Of a stretch of 30,722 nt of DNA, positions 4,395 through 25,331 are shown in pieces. The notes beneath the pieces are model-generated. The model searched no databases, was not told the DNA's origin, and saw only the letters and a list, made by a program, of their open reading frames with translations. This DNA is from a virus: positions 1 through 30,722 of IMG/VR virus record IMGVR_UViG_3300036760_001298; one strand, written 5' to 3'. Every line of letters starts with the position of its first letter. The first letter of the stretch is position 1. The position numbers were made by a program, and so were the translations under genes.

Positions 4395-5282
4395 TTACGC
4401 TGGAAATTCGTTATACAAACTGCCGTCGAGCATGCGACCGTTTTTCTTCTTGCCGCCGAAAATAAATTGGCAGCGAATCACTTCGTTAAATGAAGGATAT
4501 TGCTCGTGCAATTCAAGCGGATCGGTTTGTAAAATCATTTGCCCGTCTTTATGGGTTTCGAGCGGCAAACAATTACCCCATTGCTTGAAATAAAAGGGAA
4601 TGTTTGCACAACAATCGTCTCGCAATGAGCGAACCCAATTCGGTTGCGTGGGTCTAACTTCATTCTTTTTGCCGCCTTCTCCGCCGCAAATCACCCAGTC
4701 AATTCCGCGATGCGTGGGCAAACGCTTGCCGTTCATATCGTCTAAATCCAGTGATATTTTTCCCAAAAGCGGTTCGCAGCTCAGAAACTTGATGCGCGCA
4801 GGGGTTCGCAGCAATAACGGAATGCGCTCATTGGCATATTGCTGATTTTCGCAAGTAACGCCGAGCCAGATGTTAGGCGACCAATTTACTTTATCCATTA
4901 TTTTCAGGACGTTTTCGGGGCGCTTTGTAAGCATCATAAATGTGTGATGCGCATTTCGGTTCATAGTTTCGAACATCTGCTGTAGAAACTCGAGCGGCAT
5001 CTTCTCGTGAAAGCTATCCGTCATATTGCCCGCGAAAATTCGGAGCGGCTTTTTCCATCTATCCGGCATATCTAAGCGATGCGGCAGCGTTTTGAAAACG
5101 CCGTTGAAAAATATGCCCTTGGCGTTTTTCTTGGTAAGCCCGCTATGCTCCGCGCTGAGTTCGCGTGAGGCGAAACCCGCAGCCCAGCAATGATCGCAGG
5201 CGGGGCTTTTGTGGGAACATCCTACGGAAGGGTTCCAAGGAACGTCCCACCAATCGGAATGAATTGAATCGGATTTATTCAT
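4395..5282 (-). CDS. Phage Gp37/Gp68 family protein (DUF5131)
   Basis: 295 aa. The family is widespread in phages and mobile elements but its biochemical role is not established to my knowledge. The N-terminus has the hallmark three-cysteine signature: Cys22, Cys29, Cys32 in a GCSHKSPACDHCW context, after TrpAsnProSerValGlyCys. The Cys-X6-Cys-X2-Cys pattern and TIM-barrel-like repeating strands (RIFAGNMTDSFHE; FMMLTKRPE; WLGVTCENQ; KFLSCEPLLG; WVICGGEGG; PFYFKQWG) suggest a metal- or iron-sulfur-binding barrel related in shape to radical SAM proteins, though the canonical Cys-X3-Cys-X2-Cys is absent. It is the last gene before the early terminator and follows the ASCH gene by 12 bp, a pairing that suggests joint function. 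Confidence 0.85.
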   Translation of the reverse strand: MNKSDSIHSDWWDVPWNPSVGCSHKSPACDHCWAAGFASRELSAEHSGLTKKNAKGIFFNGVFKTLPHRLDMPDRWKKPLRIFAGNMTDSFHEKMPLEFLQQMFETMNRNAHHTFMMLTKRPENVLKIMDKVNWSPNIWLGVTCENQQYANERIPLLLRTPARIKFLSCEPLLGKISLDLDDMNGKRLPTHRGIDWVICGGEGGKKNEVRPTQPNWVRSLRDDCCANIPFYFKQWGNCLPLETHKDGQMILQTDPLELHEQYPSFNEVIRCQFIFGGKKKNGRMLDGSLYNEFPA

Positions 5283-5294
5283 ATTGTCAGTGAG

Positions 5295-5705
5295 TTAATA
5301 AGCGTTAGTATTTTCCCAAAAAATGCAATAGCCTTCCCAAATATGATCGGCGTTTTTTTTTTCGTCGAAAAATTTGTGGATGGATTGCATTGAAGTAAAT
5401 CCGTCCTTTTTTATAAAAGCGGTCAATGGGTCTCTGGATAAGTTTTTCCCCATTATTTCGATATGAACAAATATGTCGCTCACCTGAATAAAAATTGGCT
5501 CAATGCGCACGATTTCTTTTTCTACTATGAATTGGCAATTTTTGGTGCGCAAGCCCGTGAAAAAGCGGATTTTGTCTCCTATTTGCATCTCCCAACTGGC
5601 GCGCTGAATAGAGGCGCGGCAGGTATGGATTTTTGTTCCGTCGAGTATTTTCTCTGCGAATTGGGGCTTGATGCCCATGACTATTTTATTGCTGTGGGTG
5701 CGCAT
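5295..5705 (-). CDS. ASCH-domain protein
   Basis: 136 aa. ASCH domains have a PUA-like fold and bind RNA or modified nucleotides; some hydrolyse modified nucleosides. The signature is visible near the start: Met-Gly-Ile-Lys-Pro-Gln-Phe...Ile-Leu-Asp-Gly-Thr-Lys-Ile-His-Thr-Cys-Arg at about 10-31, matching the Gly-x-Lys-x-x-Thr-x-Arg core, then Met-Gln-Ile-Gly-Asp-Lys-Ile and a C-terminal Phe-Phe-Asp-Glu-Lys-Lys / Trp-Glu-Gly-Tyr segment. Total length fits a single-domain ASCH protein. It sits 14 bp after the helicase gene and 12 bp before the DUF5131 gene. The pair may act on nucleic acid or nucleotide metabolism of the infected cell; substrate unknown. Confidence 0.75.
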   Translation of the reverse strand: MRTHSNKIVMGIKPQFAEKILDGTKIHTCRASIQRASWEMQIGDKIRFFTGLRTKNCQFIVEKEIVRIEPIFIQVSDIFVHIEIMGKNLSRDPLTAFIKKDGFTSMQSIHKFFDEKKNADHIWEGYCIFWENTNAY

Positions 5706-16112: not shown

Positions 16113-17933
16113 CTATGGTAATTCGGGCAATATAGGCGTGAAATAATCCGAATTTATGGCGATGCAATAGCATCGCAAAATATCGTAAAGATTCGCCTGT
16201 TCGGTTTCGTCCAAACCCGCGCCGCAAGCGAAAATATACCATTCATCCAGCGGCATATCGTCGTAAGGGGTTCCTCCGAAATTGAAGGCGTTGATATAAA
16301 CAGGTAGATTCGTTCGCCCTACTGACGATTGAGAGACAGAAGTAACCAATACGCCGAAATCAAAAACGGTAATAGCGTCGCCATTTCGGGAAATAGATTT
16401 AAATAACGTATTGTTGTAAGCATAAAACTGCGTACCGTTGATTTCAGCGAAACTACTCGAATCCTGATAGATGTTCAGGGCAATATCCGGTGTCGGATCG
16501 GCGCAACCCATAATAATACCCGTCTGCGCTTTTGAAAACTTCAAAAAGAAGGCGCTATCCTGCGTATAAATAAATCCGTCAATAGGCGAGAATTGGGTAT
16601 TATAAAATGCGTTAGCAGGAGCGGTTATATTGCCTACGTCTATTGTGTGGTAATCATTACCGCCCCAGCCTACTTCCAGTAATCTATTGGTCAAATTCGG
16701 GTTTTTCCAACAAACGGTAGCCGCTTGCCGATGGTGCGCGGGCAATAAATATAGGCGCTCCAATTTGTCCCATAAGCCCGCCGTTTTCAGCCGCGCAATC
16801 GTGGAGCGGATAACTTTCTTATGATAAACATCCGGCTCCACGTCCATCTCCGAAATAAGCGTGAGGAAATCCGCGTCGTCGGTGAGCGACAAATTGAAAA
16901 CGCAGGGAGGCAATATGATAGGCTCGCAGTCAATAAATCCGCAAGCGCGATTCACGCGCTGATAATCGCTGAGAATTAGCTTGCATTCGCCTTGCGCGTA
17001 AGGATATTTCAAGGGTTTGGCAGTCCATTTCGCGTTATATTTGACATTAACTTCTTTTATATAGCCTACCCACGCGCCCTTTTTTTCATCCCAAATATCG
17101 AAAATATCATGCGCCAACATAATAGCCATGCAATCATGTTGCCGTTCGGTAATGAACTCCGTTTCCAGCTCATATTCTTTCACCAATATCTCCGATAATT
17201 TGATGGTTTTGCCATCGCTTTTAGTAAAAACAGTCGAATCCCCTTTGTTTTGCGGCGAATGTAGCGCCATCGGCAAGCGGATTTGATTATAAAAGGTCTG
17301 ATTTTTGTAGTCGAAACCCAATAAATCGCCGCATCCTTCAGAACGGTAACGCACCATGCGCGTATGGCAACTCGAATCTGGCGGCGGATGTTTGAAAATC
17401 CAATGCGCAGTACAATATAGGGGAATGGGAACCATATAGGGGCAAAAAGACTGCGCCATTGCTCCGTTCGCATTCGGCGGGGTAGTAATAATGTTGTAAG
17501 TTCCGCTTTGATACGCCCAGTAAAAATTCCCCAAATAACTATACATCGTGCCTTGAACGATAGTATAGTTATTGAATTCGTCCACCGCCAAAAACTGCGC
17601 TGTTAAACAAGCGTCAATTTCCTCATAAATGCAAAAGGTATAACATTGCCCCGCGTTCAAAAAATAGGGAATAATCATCTCTATATTCGCCGATGGAACG
17701 CCGCATTCATTGCATTGTTGGTACGAAATCGTGCCGATTTCGCCTACCGTCATCATACATTGGTCGCACAAGCCTATTTTCAGGTTCGTGTTGTCTGTGA
17801 AAACTTGAAACTTCACCAAGTCGTCTGGGAAAAATATGAGCGGCGTATCGGCAACGTCGCAGGGCGCTTGCGTATTGTCGCAGCATATTTGCTTAAATTC
17901 GAGAAAGGAATTGGGCGGATTATTCAGAATCAT
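16113..17933 (-). CDS. Large tail-tip / receptor-binding-type protein
   Basis: 606 aa. The N-terminal half is unusually cysteine-rich (FKQICCDNTQAPCDVADT; LCDQCMMTVG; QQCNECGVPS; QCYTFCIYEEIDACL) and strand-rich. The centre has an ERQHDCMAIMLAHDIFDIWD segment. The last 230 residues, with aromatic strands and DEWYIFACGAGLDETEQANLYDI, resemble the jelly-roll or LamG-like ends of phage adhesins. It is coupled (ATGA, 17930-17933) to the 797-aa tail protein and is the last gene before a terminator, where host-recognition proteins are usually placed. Exact family not identified. Confidence 0.6.
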   Translation of the reverse strand: MILNNPPNSFLEFKQICCDNTQAPCDVADTPLIFFPDDLVKFQVFTDNTNLKIGLCDQCMMTVGEIGTISYQQCNECGVPSANIEMIIPYFLNAGQCYTFCIYEEIDACLTAQFLAVDEFNNYTIVQGTMYSYLGNFYWAYQSGTYNIITTPPNANGAMAQSFCPYMVPIPLYCTAHWIFKHPPPDSSCHTRMVRYRSEGCGDLLGFDYKNQTFYNQIRLPMALHSPQNKGDSTVFTKSDGKTIKLSEILVKEYELETEFITERQHDCMAIMLAHDIFDIWDEKKGAWVGYIKEVNVKYNAKWTAKPLKYPYAQGECKLILSDYQRVNRACGFIDCEPIILPPCVFNLSLTDDADFLTLISEMDVEPDVYHKKVIRSTIARLKTAGLWDKLERLYLLPAHHRQAATVCWKNPNLTNRLLEVGWGGNDYHTIDVGNITAPANAFYNTQFSPIDGFIYTQDSAFFLKFSKAQTGIIMGCADPTPDIALNIYQDSSSFAEINGTQFYAYNNTLFKSISRNGDAITVFDFGVLVTSVSQSSVGRTNLPVYINAFNFGGTPYDDMPLDEWYIFACGAGLDETEQANLYDILRCYCIAINSDYFTPILPELP

Positions 17934-20323
17934 GCGCGTACGAGTTTGAAATTAGCTTTTGCGTCGTTAAAATTATAGCGGACTTCTCGAATAAACCAAA
18001 GCCCGTCAGCAGCGAAGGAATCGGCAATTTCAATCATGCGCGTTAAACCAGCGCGCAACGCAACGAAATCAGAATATACGAGCATATATTCAAATTCCAA
18101 GATTTCCGGCTGGTAAATCGGTAGGGAACAAGCTACCAATTCTCCCCTATTCCACTGCGGTTTAGCGGTTTCGCAGGGCGGGTCTGGATCGTTTTCGATA
18201 ATATACGAATAATCTTCGCAGCAAGGGGCGGTTTCTTGATATTGTTCCCTATCGTTCCCTTCTTTATAGGTCTGCTTTATCGTGTTTACGCTTTTACTCG
18301 AAAATAATACAGGAAACCAGCGAAACAAATTGCGTTGGGGCGCTATGCGCAAATTATAGCTATTGGCTCCGTCGAATAAGCCTGCGCCTGCTATGAGCGC
18401 CGTAAAATTTTCGTCTTTTTCAGTTAGATTCATCTGCGCGACGCTTTGCTTGACGCATACCACGAAAATGTTATTGTCATATTTGTAGTCGGTGGAATCT
18501 GCGCCCTGCCTGCGCGTAATTTCAATCGTATAGCCTGAACCAATATATTTGCAGCGCAAATCCGTTTCGGTGCGGTAAAAACGCTGTAAAGTCGTATATT
18601 CTCGCGGCGTATTAAATTCCTCTAAACCGTTGAAATCTTCGCTTTCCCATATCTCGAAACCCGCGACGATTTTATTGAAAATCTCCTGATCCGCTACCTT
18701 AAATTGATATTTCGGGATTTTGTCGAGCGATAATATGGGCGTTTGCGTATTGTCGTAAAAATAGCGCAGTTCCTCAATTCGAATGATAAAATCAGGCGGG
18801 TTTGCGATGCTCGGCGCGTTGGAAGTGGGTTCGAAAGTCATGCCGCAAGCCCATATTGCGCGCATATTATCGAATAGTTCCTCGAAACTCATGCTTACCG
18901 GATTTCGCGCTATGGTGCAACTCGGATTTCCAGGGTCTACTTCATCGCAAATAATATCGTCTTCCGAGGTAGGAATTTCGCGCCCTCTCAATAAAAGTCC
19001 GTTTGTGAGCGTGGTAAATGCCGCGCAGCCTTCCTCGACGCTTGAGAATGGCTGCGCGTCCGTCCTGCCGAAATAATCGCTGAAAACGCGGATTTTATTG
19101 TTGGTAACGCTCTCTGCTATTCGACTAAAGGCTTCGTTTACCGCGAAAACCTTTATATCAGATTCCTCGAAAGTCGAATCTAATTTGATAGTGAAACAGC
19201 AAGGCGGATCAATAATTATCGCCTGAAATACGATTGACCAGGGCCAATCGTCCACTAACCCCTGCTCATATACGCCATACACGCGGCAACTGAAATATAG
19301 TTCTATTTTATCCCCAACTTCTAAATGAATTATGCCTGTAAAACTTATATTTCCAGTGGAATAAAGATGCTTATTATCCCCAGGCGTATTGCCAACATGC
19401 GGGCTGGGTTCGCTAATATAGGTAGGAAAGGACCCCCCGGGTATTGTAACCCCGTTCTTCTGAAAATAGATGATTAGGTCGAAACCGTCGTAGTCGTGTT
19501 GCAATTCTGAGCTGTCCAATTCCGCGCCGGTGTAAACGTCAACGAAACCGTCTGCAGAAAAACACCAATCGAAATAATAATCGCCCGCCTCTTCCGCAAT
19601 GAAAATAGCGGGAACCGTTGTACCTATACCTTCGCCCATCGCATTGGCAATCCCTTGAAAAACGTGCAATTCCTGCTTAATCTGCGTATCCCAACCCGGC
19701 GCGCCGTATATTGTTTTGTCAAGCGAATAGGTTCCAACTCCTGAAGGAATTACCGCAAGTTGATTGTCAGTATATAGCTGAAAATTGGCGAGCTTCTTAA
19801 ATTGCGTGGTTTTTCGGATACTTTTTGAGTGCATCGTCAATTTATAGGGAGCGCGGTCGTATTCGTCCAATGCGACCGTTTCATCCACCGATTTCAACGC
19901 CAATAAATCCACTTTCGTAGAGATATTGTTCCAAAATGCGTTTTGCGAATTGTGATGTTCTATGGGCGCGGTTATGGTGCAAACTCCCCCCTTATATTCG
20001 AAACTTGCGCGGTTTAAAGCTATCCAACCTTCATAGAGAAATTCGTAGGAACTGCCGCATTCGTGGAATACTATCAGCTTCATCTCATTGTCCGGTCCGA
20101 AGGTTTTGTAGAAATCCAAAATTGTCTGGTAGCCGCCGTCGTATTGCGTATTGCCCCAAAATTCCAAGGGTTGGGAAAATTCGGTGAGAAAGCCGTGATA
20201 TTTCTCGTGACGCTTGATAGTTACCTCCATGCGCTTCCAGCCGATAGGTTCTTGAATGTCCACCGGAACCCCGCCGTTTAGCGACGGGTGCTGCAATTGA
20301 AAGAGAAATCGCGGATTCGCCAT
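17930..20323 (-). CDS. Large tail protein (distal tail / tail-tip hub)
   Basis: 797 aa. It starts directly after the small 77-aa gene (TAATG overlap) downstream of the tape measure, the position of distal-tail and tail-tip proteins. The N-terminus (NPRFLFQLQHPS..., then VPVDIQEPIGWKRMEVTIKR) and the Phe-x-Gly-Trp-type segments at about 100-125 (FLYEGWIALNRASFEYKGG) are strand-rich as in Dit-like domains. The C-terminus ends with FIREVRYNFNDAKANFKLVRA. No enzymatic motif seen. The assignment is mainly by position and length. Confidence 0.65.
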   Translation of the reverse strand: MANPRFLFQLQHPSLNGGVPVDIQEPIGWKRMEVTIKRHEKYHGFLTEFSQPLEFWGNTQYDGGYQTILDFYKTFGPDNEMKLIVFHECGSSYEFLYEGWIALNRASFEYKGGVCTITAPIEHHNSQNAFWNNISTKVDLLALKSVDETVALDEYDRAPYKLTMHSKSIRKTTQFKKLANFQLYTDNQLAVIPSGVGTYSLDKTIYGAPGWDTQIKQELHVFQGIANAMGEGIGTTVPAIFIAEEAGDYYFDWCFSADGFVDVYTGAELDSSELQHDYDGFDLIIYFQKNGVTIPGGSFPTYISEPSPHVGNTPGDNKHLYSTGNISFTGIIHLEVGDKIELYFSCRVYGVYEQGLVDDWPWSIVFQAIIIDPPCCFTIKLDSTFEESDIKVFAVNEAFSRIAESVTNNKIRVFSDYFGRTDAQPFSSVEEGCAAFTTLTNGLLLRGREIPTSEDDIICDEVDPGNPSCTIARNPVSMSFEELFDNMRAIWACGMTFEPTSNAPSIANPPDFIIRIEELRYFYDNTQTPILSLDKIPKYQFKVADQEIFNKIVAGFEIWESEDFNGLEEFNTPREYTTLQRFYRTETDLRCKYIGSGYTIEITRRQGADSTDYKYDNNIFVVCVKQSVAQMNLTEKDENFTALIAGAGLFDGANSYNLRIAPQRNLFRWFPVLFSSKSVNTIKQTYKEGNDREQYQETAPCCEDYSYIIENDPDPPCETAKPQWNRGELVACSLPIYQPEILEFEYMLVYSDFVALRAGLTRMIEIADSFAADGLWFIREVRYNFNDAKANFKLVRA

Positions 20324-23500: not shown

Positions 23501-24211
23501 GAATTGTCCGAGCGGCACATCTAATATAGCTTCCGTTAATTGGTTGAACGGCTTGCCTAACGACGCGGCAATATCGCCGAAAGCGGTTAATTGTTCGATG
23601 CTGGGTTCTAACCCACGATTAGCATATTTGATAAACGAATCCGTTATTTCATTCACGCTGAAGTTTGTAACGGCGGCTAATTGATTTAGTTCAGCGAACT
23701 TTTCAGACGCTTCGGCTTGCGTCCCCAATATCTGTTTTAAGGATATTTGCAACTTTTCATATTGTCCGGTTACCTCAAAAACCTTAGTGGCGAAATTCGT
23801 GAGCGTATTGATGGCGAACGCGGCGACCATCAAGGGACCGATTTGTGAAATTGATTGCTTTAAGAGGTTGAAATCGCGGGCGGAATTGCTGACGCTTTCG
23901 GTTTGCGCTTTGCCGAGTTTCGCGGTTTCTCCGGTAAGGGACGCGAGCCTATTTTTGCTGTCCGCAATCTGCTTATTGTATTTTTGGATTTCGTCAATCG
24001 ATTGCTCTTTTTTGCGCTCGGAATACAGTTGGTTTAGCTTTTTACGCTCCTGTTCTAAAATCCCGACGGTTTTTTGACGCTCGGCGTTTTCGCGTTCCAA
24101 TAGCTTCAATAGCTCTTTTTCCGCGTCGGTGAGCTGACTTTGCGTTTTTAGGACTTTATATAAATCGCCAATATCCGCTACGAATTTGACGCTAACCGCT
24201 TCACTTGCCAT
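20561..24211 (-). CDS. Tape measure protein
   Basis: 1216 aa, the longest gene. It sets tail length; at the usual rule of about 0.15 nm per residue this gives roughly 180 nm. It has long coiled-coil stretches rich in Glu/Lys/Gln/Ala (about 20-95, 360-700, 960-1030), a phage-related minor-tail N-terminal region (VFEVTGQYEKLQISLKQILG; SVNEITDSFIKYANRG), and hydrophobic segments (LMVAAFAINTLTNFA; FHGFIDGAIGAIGWLSRFLG; ILMTALATANFAAQVA). The start has an A-rich leader (GCTAAAAAACAAT). The frameshifted chaperone extension overlaps its first 11 bases, the classic G-T/tape measure arrangement. Confidence 0.92.
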   Translation of the reverse strand: MASEAVSVKFVADIGDLYKVLKTQSQLTDAEKELLKLLERENAERQKTVGILEQERKKLNQLYSERKKEQSIDEIQKYNKQIADSKNRLASLTGETAKLGKAQTESVSNSARDFNLLKQSISQIGPLMVAAFAINTLTNFATKVFEVTGQYEKLQISLKQILGTQAEASEKFAELNQLAAVTNFSVNEITDSFIKYANRGLEPSIEQLTAFGDIAASLGKPFNQLTEAILDVPLGQFKRLTEFGISAEKQGDKIVLSYNNVKKTVDATLASVAGAFTEFGKMTGVMGGMEAQSKGLVGKMSTLNDLFEQFVAGIGTKLSGVFHGFIDGAIGAIGWLSRFLGITKNVNEQIIEQKSIFTSQIVALGKYNEQIAKLAPQYDKLTQAEKENSLTGKLYNIALAERRVLINELNAAYGQYMPFLLVEASTQSDIAHFYELGNKVINERLRLKAAQQTSATEDQKLIELNKKLIESEGELKNVEEGRNLRLRFNVATQQDAIRLHKLRVRNIQEEITAQEALANQARDVVKLTTNQSQAEKTRAVNKANENNTMAKLRKEDYNNAKQIRERIAEIEAWLPVVVSPGVKAAYEQYLKDLRAKLNEQEDKDSEAAKKAAEARKKALDDLAEYEKKLRADFKKEQIQLDIAGLRDEFARREALVKGNRDGEIEMMKKEAAEKLKAAGVTGADRIRIEELVNGRIKQINTDAGNELLKIWAARDKAKIDLESGDKSHLLKSKLDDQLITQFEFDRLTLNLAEDTAKKKLAVDNKYAQDAVQAEQDLANKKQAIQDSDAKLVIERKQSHTELLLKIGAEAVHIDMVRARNAAAVREAIAKGDFERVKLLMIAQAEEIKGIRNGNLKTIPDAGLLSIPAVIKNFNKRIEIETNYWDVLIDAAEKGSATELSLIAKKNAAIAALEQERVEKVGAIIQAGFQSFANMYQSFHAFIDQGETEIYDRQIERANTSINANNERLDFLQGAESRASGRRKKELQAQIAQLQQNNKQEQAEIKKAEAEKERIRKEAGERKKLIDIASATIDFAKTVVGIWTAGAEIDAVTLGIGGTPYRILMTALATANFAAQVATIRSQKFAAGALDIQGPGTNTSDSIPARLSKGESVMTAQETNLYKPILQKMRDRSLRPDWLDSLTHQVELAGNSHNPQASSLRTDALEAKLDETNRTMQSIAETLKDLPVNEHIYDANGYARFTRQKNQRTLDIENAYT

Positions 24212-24515
24212 ATTGTTTTTTAGCTTCGTTTATTTCCGCTGATTCTTCGTTATTCCATTTATTGACCAATTCGCACAGCCAAAAAAACCGATAAACGCTT
24301 AGGCGCTGAATATCGGAGATTTCCGCAACTCGTTTATGGAGGATTGTAGCGACTGCCGATTCATATTGTTTGACGATCCGGTATCCAGCCGCTCGAAAAG
24401 AGACAGCAGGTTTTTCATTTTCAGCTTTTCCACTATTGGAAGGTAGGTTTCCAAATCGAGCGCGGAGTCTGTCGGCAAGCCTATTAAATCTTTGATAGGC
24501 TTCTGTAAAAAAAAA
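24201..24515 (-). CDS. -1 frameshift extension of the tail-assembly chaperone (GT-like)
   Basis: Open frame in -1 relative to the 24299-24955 gene, running from the slippery T run to TGA at 24201-24203. After the slip it reads FTEAYQRFNRLADRLRARFG, then a linker, then YRIVKQYESAVATILHKRVA, then SDIQRLSVYRFFWLCELVNK. It adds 102 residues to residues 1-149 of the G-like protein, 251 aa in all. It has no useful start of its own, fills the otherwise empty 24212-24298 gap and overlaps the tape-measure ATG. In lambda-like phages GpGT carries the tape-measure-binding T domain. The recoding is inferred from sequence, not proven. Confidence 0.75.
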   Translation of the reverse strand, partial: FFFTEAYQRFNRLADRLRARFGNLPSNSGKAENEKPAVSFRAAGYRIVKQYESAVATILHKRVAEISDIQRLSVYRFFWLCELVNKWNNEESAEINEAKKQYGK

Positions 24516-24955
24516 TTGAGGAGTCCCTCTGCTTTCCAGCGCGCTATTTTTATTTTGGCGTATTCGGTGGAATAAACGAGCGGGTTTTCCGTCGCGTCGA
24601 AAAATACGACGGCTGCGGCTTTAAAAACAGTATCCGGCTCAAAAACCCAATCCAACCTATCCTTTAGGTCGCGGGCGATGGAAATTACTTGGGTGGCGTA
24701 ATCCGATTTTCGGGGGTCGAGCGCGAGAATCGCGTCATTATGCGCAGTAAGAATCTGCCGGTCAATTCGGCAATCCATTTCTGAAAACGCGACTAGCCCG
24801 TGAAAAAACCTCTCGACGGGCAAATCCGCGTCGTCCGCGCATTTATAGTATTGTACGCCGCCCGAAACAAACGCTGGGAGGACGGTGAATGGAAAAACTT
24901 GGAATTGGGGCGGGTTGTTTGGGTTGAGATTCGGCAGTTGGGTCTGCGGAATCAT
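24299..24955 (-). CDS. Tail-assembly chaperone, G-like (unshifted product)
   Basis: 218 aa from MIPQTQLPNLNPNN; the frame is open to 25057, but this start avoids a deeper overlap. After a Pro/Asn-rich leader come VFPFTVLPAFVSGGVQYYKC and helical segments (RFFHGLVAFSEMDCRIDRQIL; DLKDRLDWVFEPD), then EGLLNFFLQKPIKDLIGLPTD. The frame passes a run of nine T, where a -1 slip gives the longer GT-like product. It lies between the probable tail tube and the tape measure. It overlaps the upstream gene by 113 bp, more than usual, so its true start is uncertain. Confidence 0.7.
   Translation of the reverse strand: MIPQTQLPNLNPNNPPQFQVFPFTVLPAFVSGGVQYYKCADDADLPVERFFHGLVAFSEMDCRIDRQILTAHNDAILALDPRKSDYATQVISIARDLKDRLDWVFEPDTVFKAAAVVFFDATENPLVYSTEYAKIKIARWKAEGLLNFFLQKPIKDLIGLPTDSALDLETYLPIVEKLKMKNLLSLFERLDTGSSNNMNRQSLQSSINELRKSPIFSA
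24507..24515 (-). promoter_or_regulatory. Slippery T9 sequence for -1 programmed frameshifting
   Basis: On the minus strand CAATTTTTTTTTACAG. The heptamer T-TTT-TTT occupies 24515-24509 in exact register with the zero frame (codons AAT TTT TTT TTA), so both tRNA-Phe can re-pair one base back. Confidence 0.75.
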
Positions 24956-25331
24956 TGGGTTGGGTTGATTCGCTTGATTCGCTGCGTTCTGCAGGAATGG
25001 CGTCAGGAATTTCCACAGTAGGAAAATCTTCGTTAGCAACCACGATAGCATTGTCATTGGGGGGTTTAATATCTTTTTTCATCGTAAAAAAATCAAGTAG
25101 AAATTGCAAGTTTTCGCCGTCCTGTAATATGAAGCCCTCCCATTCGCTCGTTAAGCGAAAAGGAGGATTTGTTGGGAAAAAGTTGTATTTGTCCATTTTC
25201 CACCAAACAAATAACATTCCGACAGGGCAGCGGTAACGGGTCTTGTGCAAGTTTTTTTTGCAGTGTTGACCCGTTTCCTCAACGAAAATGAAGCCCGCGG
25301 CAATAAGCGCCCTGCCTAGCGATTGGTACAT
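24843..25331 (-). CDS. Hypothetical tail protein between tube and chaperone
   Basis: 162 aa, starting 3 bp after the previous stop. The first 85 residues look folded (LIAAGFIFVEETGQHCKKNL; YRCPVGMLFVWWKMDKYNFF; LTSEWEGFILQDGENLQFLL). Residues from about 88 are Pro/Ser/Glu-rich and disordered (PAERSESSESTQPNDSADPT). The tail overlaps the chaperone gene in another frame by 113 bp or more. Not recognised. The disordered C-terminus may be the leader of the chaperone joined by a second recoding event, but no good slippery site was found. Confidence 0.5.
   Translation of the reverse strand: MYQSLGRALIAAGFIFVEETGQHCKKNLHKTRYRCPVGMLFVWWKMDKYNFFPTNPPFRLTSEWEGFILQDGENLQFLLDFFTMKKDIKPPNDNAIVVANEDFPTVEIPDAIPAERSESSESTQPNDSADPTAESQPKQPAPIPSFSIHRPPSVCFGRRTIL

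Follow-up and report, generated by a model that had tools for sequence, protein, structure and literature searches.

Two overlapping reading frames meet at a conserved run of nine T's in a putative phage tail assembly chaperone gene

The tail module and its reading frames

The DNA analysed here, referred to below as the window, is a stretch of 30,722 nucleotides from a virus (IMG/VR record IMGVR_UViG_3300036760_001298). Its tail module lies on the minus strand and includes a putative tail assembly chaperone gene directly upstream of the tape measure gene (Table 1). A preliminary description of the window had likened this place, between tail tube and tape measure, to that of lambda G/GT. The position next to the tape measure gene holds in the window as well as in relatives, whereas the tube protein can be named by position only and has no family hit.

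Table 1. Features of the tail module and of the slip region, in window coordinates
Feature	Position	Strand	Basis or remark
Virion structural protein, 797 aa (p797), same tail module	17930..20323	-	phrog_15220, 6e-61; served to find syntenic loci
Tape measure protein (TMP), 1216 aa	20561..24211	-	PHROG tail length tape measure families, best named 3.5e-37; tblastn to annotated tape measure proteins
-1-frame extension, 102 aa, putatively fused to the chaperone's N-terminal part through a -1 shift	24201..24509	-	Open frame; profile of relatives' extensions
Putative tail assembly chaperone, short zero-frame product, 218 aa	24299..24955	-	Open frame, coding statistics, tblastn homologues
Dual-coding overlap, 208 nt: zero-frame tail (69 aa) and -1 extension	24299..24506	-	Composition, profile match, constraint in relatives
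Perfect 8-bp hairpin AAGCCUAU / AUAGGCUU, 10-nt loop	24477..24502	-	6 nt 3' of T_TTT_TTT; possible local stimulator
T9 slip site	24507..24515	-	Overlapping heptamers T_TTT_TTT (24515-24509) and T_TTT_TTA (24512-24506), both zero-frame
162-aa ORF between tube candidate and chaperone	24843..25331	-	Open frame only; no family match
Candidate major tail (tube) protein, 295 aa	25335..26222	-	Position only; no family match

The chaperone gene likely starts at the ATG at 24955, from which the zero frame reads CTC AAT TTT TTT TTA CAG across a run of nine T's (T9). The -1 frame has no stop between 24620 and a TGA at 24203-24201 (140 codons), and a -1 slip at the run would yield a fused product of 251 aa, with 102 aa from the slip onward. 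This extension ends 11 nt within the tape measure gene, which begins with an ATG at 24211, and covers the gap at 24212-24298; the +1 frame has many stops. The 140-codon frame holds no ATG, no GTG and a single TTG at 24269, near its end, so that independent initiation is not expected by ordinary rules and the extension is invisible to gene callers. The zero-frame T_TTT_TTT heptamer, the open extension that fills the gap and its concealment from gene calling all agree with the preliminary description, which did not list the second heptamer in the same run, T_TTT_TTA. It was also silent on the zero frame, which continues for about 70 codons beyond the slip to a stop at 24299 and is coding and under selection there, as described below.

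Several other observations concern the window as a whole. The 162-aa ORF overlaps the chaperone N-terminus by 113 nt (24843-24955) in another frame, which would mean that the chaperone truly starts further downstream or that this stretch, too, is dual-coding. The phage is mosaic, in that its head genes are distantly related to those of Winoviridae, Porphyromonas and hankyphage-type phages, and its tail genes are related to a metagenomic family reached through the tape measure and not to the tails of the head-module relatives. A permuted record is suggested by the gene order, with portal and large terminase at the low end and, at the high end, capsid and a protease of the ClpP type. A run of ten A's at 5353-5362 on the coding (minus) strand, within a 136-aa ORF (5295-5705), is a possible slippage site or hypermutable run.

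Coding signals within the window

When the zero-frame protein was held constant by synonymous resampling, the probability of a -1 frame open over the overlap was 0.003, and when segments of equal length were taken from the phage's own genes, just 35 of 1213 had an open -1 frame. Coding potential was scored with inhomogeneous Markov models of orders 2 and 3, trained on the other genes of this phage. The zero frame ranks first both before the slip and within the overlap. Past the zero-frame stop (24212-24298), -1 is the top coding frame, leading the nearest frames by 11-14 nats at order 2 and by 10-13 nats at order 3.

A sequencing error would be expected to leave only the -1 frame coding in the overlap, and this arrangement was rejected because the observed zero-frame lead is reached by none of 58 control segments. 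The opposite arrangement, in which only the zero frame codes in the overlap, is compatible with composition, as 4-32 of 90 control segments come as close, depending on model order. Composition alone therefore cannot prove the -1 frame within the overlap, and relatives were needed.

Relatives of the tail module

Direct single-protein scans of IMG/VR with the chaperone, the N-terminal part of the tape measure protein, the MCP and p797 returned no relatives, leaving the window as a singleton. Neither a search of GenBank phages with the fused chaperone nor a DNA scan for a degenerate slip site returned anything. Scans with TerL alignments led to head-module relatives whose tails are unrelated to that of the window. 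Homologues of the chaperone were obtained through two further IMG/VR scans. The first was seeded with an alignment of a conserved tape-measure domain (A3) and retrieved 80 loci, 15 of which contain chaperone homologues by tblastn (E down to 6e-15). These matches span residues 28-216 and hence take in much of the zero-frame tail beyond the slip. The second scan, seeded with an alignment of chaperone homologues (A4), matched 216 places, of which 80 were kept; the chaperone alignment had no match in 395 Bacteroidota genomes.

In what follows, close relatives are the 79 complete loci of the second scan, with frame and diversity statistics computed on 58 ungapped distinct sequences, and distant homologues are 13 divergent loci from the first scan (17-84% identity).

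Conservation of the run and of both frames

A run of exactly nine T's is found in 79/79 close relatives and in 12 of the 13 distant homologues, and at least 90 related phages carry the run together with both reading frames. The -1 frame is open past the zero-frame stop in every locus of both sets. In each complete relative examined, the extension lies directly before the tape measure gene, and all 13 distant homologues have a zero-frame tail plus a -1 extension ending near the tape measure start. The dual-coding overlap is 133-235 nt long in relatives. The preliminary description had proposed looking for conservation of the run and of the extension frame, and had counted a changed run with a broken -1 frame, or a variable T count, as evidence against its reading. 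Conservation is what was found, and the sole exception to T9 retains its extension.

That exception, locus L271, has CTG GGA AAG where the others have NNT TTT TTT, as placed by alignment. Its site is the G_GGA_AAG of lambda, located at the same two codons as T9, and both frames are kept. Among the 12 distant homologues with T9, the preceding codon varies (GGT, GAT, GCT, ACT or AGT) and the following codon is TTG or TTC. The codons GGT TTT TTT TTG are invariant in the 58 distinct close sequences, compared with only 7% of third positions upstream. TTG makes up 29 of 774 upstream Leu codons in the close relatives, yet it is invariant at the slip site. Elsewhere in the 538 kb of these loci, just 12 A/T runs of at least nine occur.

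Selection on two C-termini

Within the overlap, stops are absent from the zero and -1 frames of all 58 distinct sequences and present in the +1 frame of all 58. Upstream of the slip the -1 frame is interrupted in 58/58, and past the zero-frame stop only the -1 frame is stop-free. Amino-acid diversity in the overlap is 0.159 in the zero frame and 0.193 in the -1 frame, against 0.268 in the +1 frame. Diversity by codon position is 0.099/0.028/0.344 upstream of the slip versus 0.076/0.120/0.194 in the overlap, where the dominance of third positions collapses. In pair tests with randomly placed substitutions, amino-acid changes in both frames were jointly below random (P from 0 to 0.025), and changes in the -1 frame given the zero frame were fewer than random in two pairs (P of 0.005 and <0.003). 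Had the substitutions fallen at random, one frame or the other would often have acquired a stop.

Profiles provide a separate comparison. The window extension scores 32.6 bits against a profile of the relatives' -1 extensions from which the window had been left out (best of 2000 shuffles, 13.5 bits), and the window zero-frame tail scores 10.3 bits against the relatives' profile (2/2000 shuffles as high). A profile search had also been suggested in the preliminary description for the fused product and the extension; its yield lies in this match among relatives, not in known families, where nothing significant was matched.

To judge from these substitution and profile data, both frames of the 208-nt overlap are under selection, giving rise to two predicted alternative C-termini. 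It can be regarded as nearly certain that the arrangement with two products exists and is under selection. There is also a good case, if a less firm one, that recoding here swaps C-terminal domains instead of adding one. The short and long chaperones would then each carry a conserved functional C-terminal domain of their own (about 45-76 aa and 83-102 aa, respectively), the two being read in overlapping frames from one stretch of 133-235 nt, throughout a large uncharacterised phage family. If this is true, one gene gives rise to two chaperones with different ends.

How the second frame might be reached

A system of the lambda G/GT type agrees with the position, the shift direction, the conservation and the absence of an internal start. 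In lambda, the short chaperone binds the tape measure protein, and the minor -1 product carries a T domain that binds tube subunits (PMC5009743). The G/GT system is kept by a wide range of long-tailed phages, even though its sequences have little similarity (PMC5009743). We infer a G/GT-like role for the window gene from its position, architecture and conservation, not from homology to a known chaperone, and the most plausible reading, which merits considerable confidence, is that a programmed -1 frameshift operates in a tail assembly chaperone gene of the G/GT type, a type that P2 E/E' also represents. The majority of ribosomes would read through T9 and stop at 24299 to make the 218-aa chaperone. 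A minority would slip back by one base with two Phe-tRNAs on U_UUU_UUU, or one codon further along at U_UUU_UUA, and would complete a 251-aa form with a different C-terminus. By extension from lambda, the shared N-terminal part may coat the tape measure protein, and tube subunits may be recruited by the -1 domain, with the ratio of the two forms presumably set by the slip frequency.

The same 251-aa product would result from normal translation if RNA polymerase added one extra U at the run. Bacterial polymerases slip at runs of nine A's or T's, and T9 is exactly at the threshold length for transcriptional slippage (PMC1088944; PMC5009743). In E. coli, ribosomes slip less readily on U_UUU_UUU and U_UUU_UUA than on A_AAA_AAG, and U7 is a modest site (PMC5009743). 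Also in keeping with an action of the polymerase, none of the nine T's varies, neither the one that closes the codon ahead of TTT TTT nor those in the rarely used TTG, although dual coding can also explain the invariance of the last two T's. The window further has a small stem directly upstream of the run, and the relatives share no conserved RNA structure downstream. Against this stands L271, where G_GGA_AAG replaces T9 with both frames kept and offers no run long enough for the usual polymerase slip; this substitution favours the ribosome. In more distant phages from the head-module group, the sites are of the A6 type, which is too short for the polymerase. On balance, slippage by the polymerase is unlikely, though it deserves attention, and the slip is probably ribosomal.

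The usual spacing between slip site and stimulator is 5-9 nt, and low-level frameshifting in its absence is known in tailed phages (PMC5009743). The window has a hairpin within this range (Table 1), and a stem like it, at a spacing of 4-9 nt, occurs at 0.37% of window positions; the z score of the hairpin region is only about -0.6. The relatives contain no conserved RNA structure 3' of the slip (alifold 0.0), and the window hairpin is not shared. This 8-bp hairpin may therefore be, at most, an optional local aid.

Two other explanations fare much worse. Overlapping small genes are frequent in tail operons, and the -1 ORF might be one of these, translated from a start of its own. The 140-codon frame has the single late TTG as its one conceivable start codon, however, and both the run and its phase at the frame junction are invariant, making a separate gene very improbable. 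An even smaller chance attaches to a homopolymer sequencing or assembly error that splits a single-frame gene, a reading encouraged by the nature of the site and by single-frame proteins of similar length encoded by the syntenic genes in some phages with related tail modules (L178, L179, Pan5 and LS06), but excluded by the constant T count in relatives and at odds with a zero frame that is coding and conserved through the overlap.

Comparison with known systems

Among databases, the short, fused and extension sequences and those of relatives gave no significant match in Pfam, PHROGs or 50,697 GenBank phage records. The family phrog_8914, of the Bacteroides phage B124-14 type and annotated in some members as tail assembly chaperone, did not match anything in the window at E<=10. 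The syntenic genes of three Bacteroidota prophages, Pan5 and LS06 were considered as homologues and rejected, as hhalign found nothing. Against a profile of phrog_8914-type and syntenic genes, the C-terminus of the extension has a weak score of 4.2 bits (7-13/1000 shuffles). AlphaFold models from single sequences were poor (pLDDT 58.8 for the extension, with three helices, and 38.6 for the short product), and Foldseek found no significant match to them. One further phrog_8914 gene, in locus L180 (reverse strand, about 4685-5460), is split at an A run, with the zero frame covering profile positions 7-143 and a -1 extension covering 181-249; since this gene is single-frame in L179 and in Bacteroides phage B124-14, the split in L180 reflects either frameshifting in this gene as well or a miscounted run.

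A survey of head-module relatives (L002-L012 and L015-L174, including Porphyromonas phage 012a, hankyphage p00, TCUEAP3, pippi8-1, FPSV-S1, fF4, Peternella_1 and metagenomic loci) found that in 48/58 loci the gene preceding the tape measure gene has a -1 extension reaching 35 aa or more beyond its stop, compared with 11 for +1. Most of these extensions have A_AAA_AAC or A_AAA_AAG 9-12 nt before the stop, and annotated records either lack the extension or call it as a separate small ORF. In Porphyromonas phage 012a, TCUEAP3 and hankyphage p00 (L003, L004 and L012), the -1 frame upstream of the zero-frame stop is also similar (YYQI...E...GEL). TCUEAP3 lacks an in-phase canonical heptamer, and the slip site of these three may lie elsewhere or be non-canonical. 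The unannotated extensions of Winoviridae, hankyphage and Porphyromonas phages resemble that of the window in place relative to the tape measure gene and in shift direction, but their chaperone sequences are unrelated and their slip usually occurs just before the zero-frame stop.

The arrangement in the window resembles lambda G/GT in its place before the tape measure gene, its -1 shift, its short and long products and an extension that reaches the tape measure gene; the lambda heptamer itself is present in L271. In lambda, however, the shift occurs near the 3' end of g (PMC5009743), whereas the window slip is followed by about 70 dual-coding codons, its slip site is U9, and no sequence homology was found. 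P2 E/E+E' is similar in having a T-run site (T_TTT_TTG; T7G in Smp131) and a -1 shift, and E' has no ribosome binding site of its own and overlaps the next gene (PMC3931495). The P2 site is T6G, with an E/E' overlap of 37 nt (PMC3931495) as opposed to 208 nt in the window, and its run is T6 (T7 in Smp131) and not T9; again no homology was found. A further difference from both lambda and P2 is that the short form does not just end after the slip, as the same DNA supplies it with about 70 aa of conserved tail. In Shigella mxiE and Thermus dnaX, slippage on an A/T run also changes the product, with a run of nine in dnaX (PMC1088944, PMC5009743), but there the mechanism is that of RNA polymerase, which the G_GGA_AAG variant of L271 does not fit.

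Overall, the kind of system is known, the chaperone family is one with no match in Pfam, PHROGs or GenBank phages, and its long dual-coding overlap sets it apart from P2 and from the phages surveyed. Gene callers miss the second product of this family entirely. An invariant T9 in more than 90 loci, selection in two frames and a natural swap between T9 and G_GGA_AAG make a clean case for the study of slip-site evolution, and the T9 family offers an equally clean case for testing whether such a run acts on the ribosome or on the polymerase.
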